Below the pieces are notes generated by a model that was not told where the DNA came from, ran no database searches, and was given only the letters and a program-made list of their open reading frames with translations. From NCBI GenBank assembly GCA_019746355.1, contig JAIESC010000013.1, positions 62,001 through 126,000 on the forward strand: a stretch of 64,000 nucleotides of DNA. The letters are read 5' to 3'. Positions 36,359 through 40,149 of this stretch are shown one piece after another (position 1 is the stretch's first letter; each line of letters begins with the position of its first letter). Origin of the DNA: Xanthobacteraceae bacterium (GTDB lineage: Bacteria > Pseudomonadota > Alphaproteobacteria > Rhizobiales > Xanthobacteraceae). The position numbers and the translations under genes were made by a program.

Positions 36359-36431
36359 CCAGGCTGGCGCCACAAGCCGGGAGAAGGCTCTACAGCGAGC
36401 CACATGAGATAGCCGTGTGTTAGGAACTCCG

Positions 36432-37835
36432 ATGGCCACCCACCGCCTGACCCGCGAGATCCCGGTCGACGACAGCTACGACATCCTGGTCGCCGGCGGC
36501 GGACCGGCCGGCACCGCGGCCGCGGTCTGCGCTGCCCGCCTCGGCGCCAGGGTGCTGCTCGCCGAAGCCACCGGCTGCCTCGGCGGCATGGGCACCTCGG
36601 GCCTCGTCTCGACCTTCGGCCCGGTGTCCGACGGCAAGCGCATGCTGGTCGGCGGCTTCATGAAGGAGCTTGTCGAGTCTCTCTATCAGCGTGGCGATCT
36701 CGGCCCGCACGTGGTGCCGGAGTATCTCTACAGCCAGCTCAACCGCTGGGTCCCGTTCAAGCCGGAGGCGCTCAAGCGCACGCTCGACGCCATGGCGCAG
36801 GACGCCGGCGTCGACGTGCGCTTCTTCACCCGCGTGATCGACGCCGAGGCCGCGAACGGCCGCGTCGAGGGCGCGGTGATCAACAACGTCGAGGGCCACC
36901 GCTTCATCCGCGCCAAGGCGTTCATCGACTGCACCGGCGACGCCGCGCTGTCCGACCTCTGCGGCGCCGAGTGCAGGATCATCCTGCGCGACATCGACGC
37001 GATCGCGCCGTCGACGCTCTGCTCGATGTTCTCCGGCGTGAACTGGGACGATCCGGCCTATGGCGACGACTGGCGCGGCCTCGACAAGGTGAAGGCGTTC
37101 TCCAAGCAGCAGATCCTGAAAGCCATCGAGGACGGCCATTTCACCCAGCCTGACCGCTTCATGCCGGGCATGAACAAGATCGGCAGGCGCGCGGCCCAGC
37201 TCAACGGCGGCCACATCTTCAACCTCAACGGCCTCGACAGCCGCTCGCTGTCGGACGGCATGATGTTCGGGCGCAAGCTCGCGGTCGAATACACCGAGTT
37301 CTTCCGCAAATACGTGCCGGGCTGCGCGGAGATCGAGCTCCTCACCACCGCGCCGGTGATGGGCGTGCGCGACACCCGCCGCATCGTCGGCGAGTTCGAG
37401 CTGACGATCGACGACTTCAAGTCGGCGCGCCAGTTTCCCGATCAGGTCGCGGTCTACAATCGGCCGACCGACGTGCATCCGACCGACACGTCGGAGAAGG
37501 AGTACAAACGCTTCCTCGACGACTTCGAGGGCTTCCACGGGCTCGGCGAGGGCGATTGCCTCGGCGTGCCCTACGGCATCCTGGTGCCGAAGGGCTGGAG
37601 CAATCTCTGGGTCGCCGGACGCTGCCACTCGAGCGACACCAAGGTGCATGGCTCGATCCGCGCCCAGTCCGCCGCCTACATGATGGGCCAGGCCTCGGCC
37701 ACCGCCGCCGTGCAGTCGATCCGCACCGGCGAGCCCGCCTGCGATCTCGACACCTGGACGCTCGTGGAAACGCTGCGCGGGCAGGGCGCCTATCTGCCGC
37801 AGGACAAGCTCAGCCACGCGATGACGCGAAGCTGA
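36432..37835 (+). CDS. FAD-dependent oxidoreductase (FAD_oxidored family)
   Basis: 467 residues from ATG 36432 (TAGGAACTCCG upstream). An N-terminal dinucleotide-binding domain (DILVAGGGPAGTAAAVCAAR and GARVLLAEATGCLGGMGTSG) is followed by a long substrate domain with VEGAVINNVEGH, FIDCTGDAALSDLCGAE and TAPVMGVRDTRRIVGEF. C-terminal FAD contacts are in NLWVAGRCHSSDTKVHGSIR and AAYMMGQASATAA. It resembles the FAD-dependent oxidoreductases related to fumarate reductase/succinate dehydrogenase flavoproteins. No signal peptide. Substrate unknown; presumably linked to the adjacent tctC genes. Confidence 0.87.
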   Translation: MATHRLTREIPVDDSYDILVAGGGPAGTAAAVCAARLGARVLLAEATGCLGGMGTSGLVSTFGPVSDGKRMLVGGFMKELVESLYQRGDLGPHVVPEYLYSQLNRWVPFKPEALKRTLDAMAQDAGVDVRFFTRVIDAEAANGRVEGAVINNVEGHRFIRAKAFIDCTGDAALSDLCGAECRIILRDIDAIAPSTLCSMFSGVNWDDPAYGDDWRGLDKVKAFSKQQILKAIEDGHFTQPDRFMPGMNKIGRRAAQLNGGHIFNLNGLDSRSLSDGMMFGRKLAVEYTEFFRKYVPGCAEIELLTTAPVMGVRDTRRIVGEFELTIDDFKSARQFPDQVAVYNRPTDVHPTDTSEKEYKRFLDDFEGFHGLGEGDCLGVPYGILVPKGWSNLWVAGRCHSSDTKVHGSIRAQSAAYMMGQASATAAVQSIRTGEPACDLDTWTLVETLRGQGAYLPQDKLSHAMTRS

Positions 37836-37889
37836 AGTCATTGCGTTGTTGCGTGGGCAAATTCTACTGCGTCAGAAGAGCCGAGGCGC

Positions 37890-38050
37890 TTGTTGTTGTG
37901 CCCTCTCCTTGTGGGAGAGGGCTGCACCGACCGCTCAGCGAAAAGAAAGGGTGAGGGGTGACGGTCCATCGATAGGTCGTAACCCCTCACCCATTCGAAT
38001 GTACTGCACAGTTGGTGTAGCCCTCTCCCACAAGGAGAGGGCGCAATAAC
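37890..38050. repeat. Compound nested palindrome next to the RAYT cassette
   Basis: Outer arms 37901-37928 and 38014-38041 are inverted repeats with one mismatch, and each arm is itself a hairpin (CCCTCTCC-ttgtg-GGAGAGGG). An inner perfect 11-bp inverted repeat pairs GGGTGAGGGGT (37949-37959) with ACCCCTCACCC (37982-37992). The layout is that of paired REP units in inverse orientation (BIME-like). Part of a 550-bp stretch without genes. Confidence 0.8.
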
Positions 38051-38092
38051 CAACGGCGGCGTTTTTGACGCAGTAGGACAAAGGCGCGCCAT

Positions 38093-38128: not shown

Positions 38129-38276
38129 GCGTGCCCACGCGATGCCTCCGCGAGCGCAAGAAGCAGGTGGGCGCGCCGCCTGTGGCGGCTTTGCCCACTC
38201 TACAATTCTGCTGTCACCGCAATGGCGTAATCGCCGCCGCCCGCGGCTGACGCCGTAGCCGGTTGCCCCGTCTAAC

Positions 38277-38320
38277 CGCCGAAGATGACCCGGCGGAAAC
38301 GCCGCAGCGAGAACGCGAAG
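38277..38320. repeat. 44-bp direct repeat, left copy
   Basis: Identical over 44 bp to 38973-39016. Read on the minus strand it encodes the end of an RRFRRVIFG C-terminus and continues into GGT TAG, which is probably the original 3' end of the ABC permease gene. Confidence 0.9.
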
Positions 38321-38325
38321 ATCGC

Positions 38326-38358
38326 GTAGGATGGGTTGAGCCGCAGGCGAAACCCATC
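38326..38358. repeat. REP-like element, left of RAYT
   Basis: 33 bp, GTAGGATGGGTTGAGCC-gca-GGCGAAACCCATC. Its own arms pair (GATGGGTT with AACCCATC), and the whole unit is the inverse of 38918-38950 except for the 3-nt loop. Confidence 0.88.
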
Positions 38359-38385
38359 GCGGTGCCGTTTTGCTATGCTGCAATC

Positions 38386-38919
38386 ATGACGCAGTACCGG
38401 CGCAATTTTGTTCCAGGCGGCAGCTTCTTCTTCACCGTTAATCTCGCGGAGCGACGGTCGTGCTTGCTCACCGAACATATCGGCGCATTGCGTGCGGCGT
38501 TTCGCGAAACGAAGGCCGATCATCCGTTCAGCATCGAGGCAATTGTCGTCCTGCCCGATCATCTGCATGCGATCTGGAGTCTGCCCAAGGGGGACGCCGA
38601 TTTCGCGACGCGCTGGCGATTGATCAAATCGAGGTTTTCGCATGCGTTGCCAGGAGGTGAGCGAATTTCCGCAAGCCGCCGCAGCAAGGGCGAGCGCGGC
38701 ATCTGGCAGCGGCGCTATTGGGAGCACACGCTGCGCGATGAAGGCGATTTCGCTCGGCATGTCGACTATATTCATTTCAACCCGGTGAAGCATGGGCATG
38801 TCGTACGCGTGGCGGATTGGCCGTATTCTTCATTCAATCGCATGACGCGGCTTGGTGTTTATCCCGCGGATTGGACGCGCGATGCTGGTAACGCAGACGC
38901 CGAGTTCGGGGAGAGGTGA
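38386..38919 (+). CDS. REP-associated tyrosine transposase (RAYT, Y1/HUH family)
   Basis: 177 residues from ATG 38386. N-terminal YRRNFVPGGSFFFTVNLAER is typical of RAYTs. The HUH metal motif is H59-x-H61 in LPDHLHAIW and the nucleophilic tyrosine is Y128 in DYIHFNPVKHG. W-Q-R-R-Y-W-E-H (107-114) and WPYSSFNR follow. The gene is intact and full length for the family, so the enzyme may be active. It would cut and join single-stranded REP hairpins. The stop codon overlaps the first bases of the right REP. A TATGCT box lies at about 38372, upstream of the start. Confidence 0.93.
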   Translation: MTQYRRNFVPGGSFFFTVNLAERRSCLLTEHIGALRAAFRETKADHPFSIEAIVVLPDHLHAIWSLPKGDADFATRWRLIKSRFSHALPGGERISASRRSKGERGIWQRRYWEHTLRDEGDFARHVDYIHFNPVKHGHVVRVADWPYSSFNRMTRLGVYPADWTRDAGNADAEFGER

Positions 38920-38950
38920 TGGGTTTCGCCTTTGGCTCAACCCATCCTAC
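38918..38950. repeat. REP-like element, right of RAYT
   Basis: 33 bp, GATGGGTTTCGCC-ttt-GGCTCAACCCATCCTAC, inverse of the left REP at 38326-38358; the arms are identical and only the loop differs. Overlaps the RAYT stop codon by 2 bases. Confidence 0.88.
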
Positions 38951-38967
38951 GGGCTACGGGCTCCCCG

Positions 38968-40149
38968 TCAGGCGCCGAAGATGACCCGGCGGAAACGCCG
39001 CAGCGAGAACGCGAAGTACCCGCAGCCGAGTGCGACAAGCGCCAGAAGCTGCGGCCAGACGATCGAAAGATCAGCGCCGCGATAGAGCACGGCCTGCGCG
39101 AAGGCCACGAAATGCGGCGTCGGGCTGATGGTCAGCATCACGGTGCGCAGCCAGAGCGGCATGCTCTCCATCGGGGTGGTGCTGCCGGACAGGAGCTGCA
39201 TCACCAGCAGGACCGGGATCGCGAGCAGCGCGAACTGTCCCATCGTGGTCGCCAGCGTGCCGAGGAGGATGCCAAGCGCCGCGACCGTGAAGGCATAAAG
39301 CGCTCCGCCGAGCAGAAACAGCACCAGCGATCCGGCGATCGGCACGCCGAGCAGCCATTGCACCACCAGCGCGAGCGACAGCCCCGCCGCCGACACGATG
39401 ACGAGCCCGTTGGCGACGATCTTCGCCAGCATGATCTCCGTCGGGACCACCGGCATCACCAGCAGGTGTTCGACCGTGCCTTGCTCACGCTCGCGGATCA
39501 GCGCCGCGCCGCTGAGGATGACGGTGAGCAAGGTCAGATTGTTGACCACCTGCATGACCGCGGTGAACCAGCTCGGCGTCAGGTTGGGGTTGAACTTGCT
39601 GCGGATCACCAGATTGACCGGCGCTTCGCTGCTTCCTTCGCGCCTCGCCTTGAAACGGGTGATCTCGCTGTTGAGGATATTCTGGATATAGATGGCACCG
39701 TTGCCCGCCTGCGCCATCGCCGTCGCGTCCACATTGATCTGGATGGATGTCGGGCGACCTGCCAGCACGTCGGCCTCGAATTTGGGCGGCGCGACCACGA
39801 CGAACACCATCCGTCCTTGATCCAGCGCGGCGTCCATCTCGGCGGCCGAGAGCGATATGGTCCTTTGGAACAACGGCGGGAGCAGCGCGTCTCTGAGCTG
39901 GCGGGAGAGCGATGAGTGGTCCTCGTCGACGAAGCCGACCGTCATGTTCCTGACTTCGGTCGAGGCCCCGGTGGTCACCATATAGACCGCGATACTGAAG
40001 GAGTAGAGCACCAGGACGAGCATCAGCGGGTCGGCGCGGATGCTGCGCAGCTCCTTGATCGCCAGCTGATAGAGGTTCGCGATATGCCTGCCGAACGCTG
40101 ATCGCCGGCTCGGCCGGTTGATTGCCGAATCGCGGGCGCGATCTGCCAT
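38968..40149 (-). CDS. ABC-2 type transporter permease (YhhJ-like)
   Basis: 393 residues. One N-terminal span (about 40-60, MLVLVLYSFSIAVYM), a large periplasmic loop, then five spans from about 205. Signatures are REREQGTVEHLLVMPVVPTEIMLAK and SGSTTPMESMPLWLRTVML, as in ABC-2 permeases of the YbhS/YhhJ group. Starts 1 bp after the stop of the RbbA-like gene. Its last codons lie in the 44-bp repeat of the RAYT cassette; the protein ends FGA instead of the probable original FGG, with unchanged length. Exporter subunit, cargo unknown. Confidence 0.92.
   Translation of the reverse strand: MADRARDSAINRPSRRSAFGRHIANLYQLAIKELRSIRADPLMLVLVLYSFSIAVYMVTTGASTEVRNMTVGFVDEDHSSLSRQLRDALLPPLFQRTISLSAAEMDAALDQGRMVFVVVAPPKFEADVLAGRPTSIQINVDATAMAQAGNGAIYIQNILNSEITRFKARREGSSEAPVNLVIRSKFNPNLTPSWFTAVMQVVNNLTLLTVILSGAALIREREQGTVEHLLVMPVVPTEIMLAKIVANGLVIVSAAGLSLALVVQWLLGVPIAGSLVLFLLGGALYAFTVAALGILLGTLATTMGQFALLAIPVLLVMQLLSGSTTPMESMPLWLRTVMLTISPTPHFVAFAQAVLYRGADLSIVWPQLLALVALGCGYFAFSLRRFRRVIFGA
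38973..39016. repeat. 44-bp direct repeat, right copy (in permease 3' end)
   Basis: Identical to 38277-38320; here it forms codons near the C terminus of the ABC permease on the minus strand, followed by GCC TGA supplied by the cassette. Confidence 0.9.

Follow-up and report, generated by a model that had tools for sequence, protein, structure and literature searches.

A REP-RAYT-REP cassette interrupts the intergenic region behind an ABC-2 type permease gene in a 64,000-nt stretch of Xanthobacteraceae bacterium DNA (the window), and is bracketed by two identical copies (44/44) of a 44-bp direct repeat which corresponds to the 3' end of that gene (Table 1). The repeat, called A below (A1 on the gene side, A2 on the distal side), is duplicated host DNA and not cargo of the cassette, since the copies are local, the same geometry is found with other gene ends, and four other loci have relatives with a single A at an empty site. 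We estimate at about one chance in two that it is a target duplication, produced when the cassette entered the permease 3' end.

The layout of the window locus was analyzed first. The initial annotation had described the direct repeats bracketing the whole cassette, the inverted REP-like units around the transposase gene and the origin of the repeat from the permease 3' end, and our analysis bears it out on all three. The REPs are inverted, 34 nt long and 94% complementary to each other; each is predicted to fold on its own into a hairpin that leaves the 5' GTAG unpaired (-9.5 kcal/mol; z of -4.15 and -5.75). A 32-mer taken from within the repeat matched the window twice at no more than 3 mismatches, for a mean of 0.00 in 100 shuffles, and the permease ORF runs through the right copy to end in FGA and a stop codon. 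The further claim of a protein change from FGG to FGA is retained in part: the left copy would indeed read FGG-stop, but it lies outside the permease ORF, so that the two copies are alternative ends and a change of the protein is not demonstrated. A single 1-nt gap stretches the repeat to 54-55 bp (38266-38320 and 38963-39016), past the stop codon. The heptamer GACGGGG is present 3' of both copies; it carries no weight in the argument. The C/T step (the slash marks the boundary between the two bases) seen at the junction of A2 with the distal REP also occurs within A1, at 39016/39015. The same convergent intergenic region contains a 52-nt inverted repeat (37887-38055, 83% complementary, of the CCCTCTCC...GGAGAGGGC kind), adjoined by a further pair of arms (37846-37861 and 38190-38205); these belong to other repeat families at the same spot.

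Table 1. Features of the window and flanking repeats of the seven other repeat-bearing loci
Locus	Feature	Position	Strand	Repeat
Window	FAD-dependent oxidoreductase gene, convergent, far side of the intergenic region	36417..37835	+	
Window	Gapped extension of A2 beyond the stop codon; CCCCGTC common with 38963-38969	38266..38276	-	
Window	A2, distal copy, outside the permease ORF	38277..38320	-	44 bp
Window	C/T at the junction of A2 with the end of the distal REP (minus-strand C 38320, T 38319)	38319..38320	-	
Window	Left REP, 5' GTAG at 38326-38329	38325..38358	+	
Window	RAYT gene, 177 aa	38386..38919	+	
Window	Right REP, inverted	38918..38951	-	
Window	Leader separating A1 from the adjoining REP	38952..38972	-	
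Window	ABC-2 type permease gene, 3' end repeated	38968..40149	-	
Window	A1, gene-side copy, last permease codons (...FGA, stop)	38973..39016	-	44 bp
L157	Flanking repeat			46 bp, 44/46
L237	Flanking repeat			54 bp, 53/54
L292	Flanking repeat			52/52
L315	Flanking repeat			41/41
L169	Flanking repeat			31/31
L409	Flanking repeat			26/28, then 31/32
L288	Flanking repeat			31/34

The transposase gene, whose stop codon shares 2 bp with the right REP, encodes a protein with an HUH motif (HLH at residues 59-61) and with Tyr128, which we take to be the catalytic tyrosine, in a VDYI-NPVKHG block common to E. coli TnpAREP. It scores 204.6 bits against the NCBIfam model REP_Tyr_transpos (NF047646; cut-off 80) and 25.1 bits against Pfam Y1_Tnp (cut-off 23), and aligns with E. 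coli TnpAREP (4er8) across residues 1-169. The gene lies between inverted GTAG REPs with predicted hairpin folds. Judged by these matches, the window transposase is a bona fide RAYT. The E. coli-like RAYT/TnpAREP REPtrons (4er8) resemble the cassette in their Y1/HUH protein, in their inverted REPs, headed by GTAG and interrupted in the stem, and in the use of C/T; the cassettes surveyed here differ from them by empty sites and by flanking repeats of 31-62 bp.

No relative of the permease above 65% identity was present in a genome scan (8 loci) or in a draw of the order (matches in 191 of the 297 genomes, at 64% for the best), and related RAYT cassettes were therefore surveyed in its place. RAYT matches were obtained in 29 of the 297 genomes of the order draw (E <= 0.001), in 143 of 391 genomes of a family draw (1e-20) and, with two RAYT queries within one genus, in 165 of 265 genomes at 1e-40 and 159 of 265 at 1e-50; plasmid searches returned only distant RAYTs or permeases. 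The survey loci are a part of these matches, together with loci from the relatives searches. They gave 245 distinct cassettes, of which 241 had 200 bp or more on each side, and these were scanned uniformly for a direct repeat of at least 24 bp with no inverted match in the flanks. Eighteen of the 241 passed. Ten of these matches are REPs by eye (L122, L125, L129, L133, L150, L151, L155, L158, L243 and L333); direct repeats that are REPs themselves are common around RAYTs and were discarded as evidence. The other eight, window included, repeat a gene end, or a gene end plus terminator, outside the REPs. By the same scan criterion, 233 cassettes have no such repeat, for which decay of the non-coding A2 could be the reason. 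Because any repeat that also matched the flanks in inverted orientation was filtered out, genuine gene ends with a terminator can have been missed, as happened to part of the L409 repeat. As a control, left and right flanks of different cassettes were paired: 19 of 2,395 mismatched pairs contained a repeat, all REP-like by eye and none a gene end. Smaller surveys had preceded this one, with 123 and then 202 usable cassettes, neither list containing L288; the control of the second gave a repeat in 4 of 804 mismatched pairs, again all REP-like by eye. A scan of 733 kb of surveyed sequence, which missed the refetched L237 locus, found one non-REP repeat pair at 650-870 bp spacing with no RAYT enclosed (L426), and other repeats without a RAYT at L411, L417 and elsewhere.

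The eight loci share one geometry: gene, A1, REP, RAYT, REP, A2, downstream DNA, where A is 31-62 bp of the gene's own end or terminator. Outside the window, host genes were named from their last 199 residues. L157 lies behind an EmrB-type MFS transporter gene (the EmrB model matched below its full-length cut-off) and L237 behind the same transporter gene, about 80% alike; the others lie behind genes for a class III aminotransferase (L292), a CO-dehydrogenase-type flavoprotein (L315), a hopanoid-associated phosphorylase (L409) and, presumably, to judge by eye, a LuxR-type regulator (L288). L169 is more complex, with a REP after A2 and the succession A then REP occurring twice. At the gene of L409, a further locus (L440) has a degraded A2 (28/29) and was left out of the eight. 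By eye, the left leaders beside A1 at both L409 and L440 resemble a decayed extra copy of the gene's terminator, as if duplications had recurred there. The initial annotation had envisaged a longer element carrying the gene end with it; this finds no support in the seven other cassettes, where the repeated stretch is in each case the gene end or terminator of the locus itself. Nor are the 44 bp a constant part of the element: at the loci compared (all but L447-L476) they are absent, with a best stray match of 16 nt, and the cargo hypothesis was rejected.

Empty sites were identified for four of the other loci (L157, L237, L292 and L409), each with at least one relative that has a single A and no cassette. 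L157 was compared with its four closest relatives (L179-L182): the gene is 87-91% identical, there is one A and no REP, and the downstream DNA is about 88% alike over some 690 bp. The empty site of L237 is in L189 (gene 96%, downstream 86% over 587 bp) and that of L292 in L378 (gene 88%, downstream 79%); the other relatives of L292 vary, with REP pairs at that gene end in L381, L382, L385 and L393. For L409, the relatives L448-L457 (gene 87-92%) show the gene end and terminator and, over the 230 nt inspected, lack a RAYT cassette, and one of them, L454, has a REP-like piece. Likeness of the downstream DNA after A2 gave shuffle p values of 0.0005 at both L157 and L237 and of 0.022 at L292, and was judged by eye for L409. 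No matching downstream DNA for L169 was found in the relatives L209-L215. At the EmrB-like gene end, the RAYT cassettes of L157, L237 and L186 are three distinct ones and L184 has a REP pair only, which suggests preferred gene ends. No A2 was detected at L186, whose cassette is 75.6% like that of L237, the genes being 90.9% alike.

In most of the eight loci the distal junction bears a mark expected of the enzyme. In the available text of PMC8266576, TnpAREP is described as cutting in vitro at C/T and as requiring a C as the 3' base that attacks. On the coding strand a C/T lies exactly at the edge of A in four of the eight loci and at offsets of 1, 3 and 4 nt in three more, i.e. within 4 nt in 7/8; L288 has no C/T near the edge. 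Against random boundaries this gives p = 0.0008 (offset 0) and p = 0.0012 (within 4 nt) in a post hoc test, the motif having first been noticed in these same loci; it covers all eight, including L288, which was found after the first version of the test. The cut position lies 4-15 nt past the CTAC of the REP in six loci, 28 nt past it in L288 and 55 nt in L169. At the junction between A1 and the cassette, on the gene side, no C/T signature is visible by eye. Such an asymmetry, C/T at the distal junction and none on the gene side, leads us to infer one end made by the enzyme and one made by the host.

From these junctions a target-primed route can be drawn up. The RAYT would cut the coding strand at C/T, at a point which in six of the eight loci leaves about 40-57 nt to the end of A, and would join to the T the distal REP by its 3' end, a final C that lies 4-15 nt past CTAC in the same six. 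A host polymerase would then extend the freed 3'-OH of the gene through A before joining to the other end of the cassette; this extension would leave A twice and the gene end intact. The sequence position of C/T supports a distal junction made by the RAYT. The broader proposal, that RAYTs are still mobile as whole REP-RAYT-REP cassettes by this route (C/T nick, host copying of some 30-57 nt of gene end, 3' REP end joined to the nick), is put forward tentatively, as a possibility on the doubtful side.

The most serious rival to a target duplication is a secondary, partial tandem duplication, in which the cassette was already resident and A alone was later copied to its far side by the RAYT or by replication slippage, an event akin to tandem REPIN clusters in which the flanks are repeated as well. 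The L315 cassette is common to G698 (L322/L352) and, in more diverged form, to G697 (L321/L354), and A2 was not found at either of these copies; as A1 and A2 of L315 are identical (41/41), the duplication there looks younger than the cassette, and a secondary event explains L315 better than a duplication at insertion. The double succession of A then REP at L169 points the same way, as do the Pseudomonas REPIN clusters, reported in the accessible text of PMC3116915 as tandem repeats that include flanking sequences, and the C/T junction is equally compatible with both readings. Against it, A2 continues at L157, L237, L292 and L409 into downstream DNA like that of the relatives, and at these four loci no relative examined has the same cassette with a single A; the same-site cases are L186, with a different cassette and no A2, and L440 at the L409 site, with its degraded A2. 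For the repeats as a whole we consider a secondary duplication unlikely. Two observations were made on relatives of the L315 locus: the RAYT of L322 (G698) is broken, an internal stretch of the gene being missing, and the stop codon of the flavoprotein gene is by eye the TAG of a GTAG-REP in L354 (G697) and part of a GGGTAG beside a REP pair in L353 (G696).

Homologous or one-sided recombination, in which A plus cassette, on a donor allele or on a circle formed by excision, crosses over at the A of an empty allele, is decidedly improbable. A1 and A2 of the window do diverge abruptly past the identical block (CCTGACGGGG vs GTTAGACGGGG), as two alleles might. Were the leader beside A1 allelic downstream DNA, it should resemble the flank of the relatives: it does so significantly in one of seven comparisons (L292 vs L378, p = 0.047), the other six giving p = 0.13-0.48, and this candidate was rejected. 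Recombination does not predict C/T at the edge either. Finally, chance or an assembly artefact with no tie to the transposase is hardly credible, even with the window locus known from the window sequence alone, given that the repeat recurs in eight cassettes, that the contigs of L157 and L288 are as long as 7.2 Mb and 8.0 Mb, and that the mismatched flank pairs are devoid of any gene-end repeat.

Known systems cover parts of the arrangement. The IS200/IS605 family (IS608, ISDra2) shares the HUH chemistry and the subterminal palindromes; its known members are stated, in the consulted part of PMC2817692, to make no larger target site duplications. The 44-bp repeat sets the window apart from these members, and the empty sites of L157, L237, L292 and L409 show what the loci looked like without a cassette; the unusual entry route that the initial annotation read into the duplication agrees with this statement. 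The closest precedent is the tandem REPIN clusters of Pseudomonas fluorescens SBW25, in which the flank is repeated together with the REP elements; REPIN excision events with putative insertions are also reported in the text available (PMC3116915). In these clusters, as described there, every unit is a flank plus a REPIN. Searched with up to 3 mismatches allowed, the window yields the two REPs of the cassette and no third copy, so the second flank copy stands there without an element; A then REP occurs twice only at L169, which is the exception. The GTAG REPs of Bradyrhizobium are likewise located downstream of genes and often supply the TAG stop, and the accessible main text of PMC3733652 mentions no gene-end duplication, the word "duplication" occurring 0 times. 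In the open-access literature, as far as its texts were available, none was found that describes gene ends duplicated at RAYTs.

The tnpAREP genes are described as mostly single-copy, with no evidence of mobility (PMC8266576, in the part available), and Pseudomonas RAYT genes as present at novel sites of the chromosome, which they may have reached through duplication or horizontal acquisition (PMC3686654, likewise). The recurrence of the same arrangement around a few related transposases hints at how a supposedly immobile kind of transposase moves, and the association of an empty site, a flanking duplication and a C/T junction provides concrete insertion events for testing mechanisms. Duplication of the gene end would explain how cassettes land beside genes without breaking them. 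If the target-primed route is true, it would mean that a single-tyrosine HUH transposase gives rise to long target duplications and spares the host gene.
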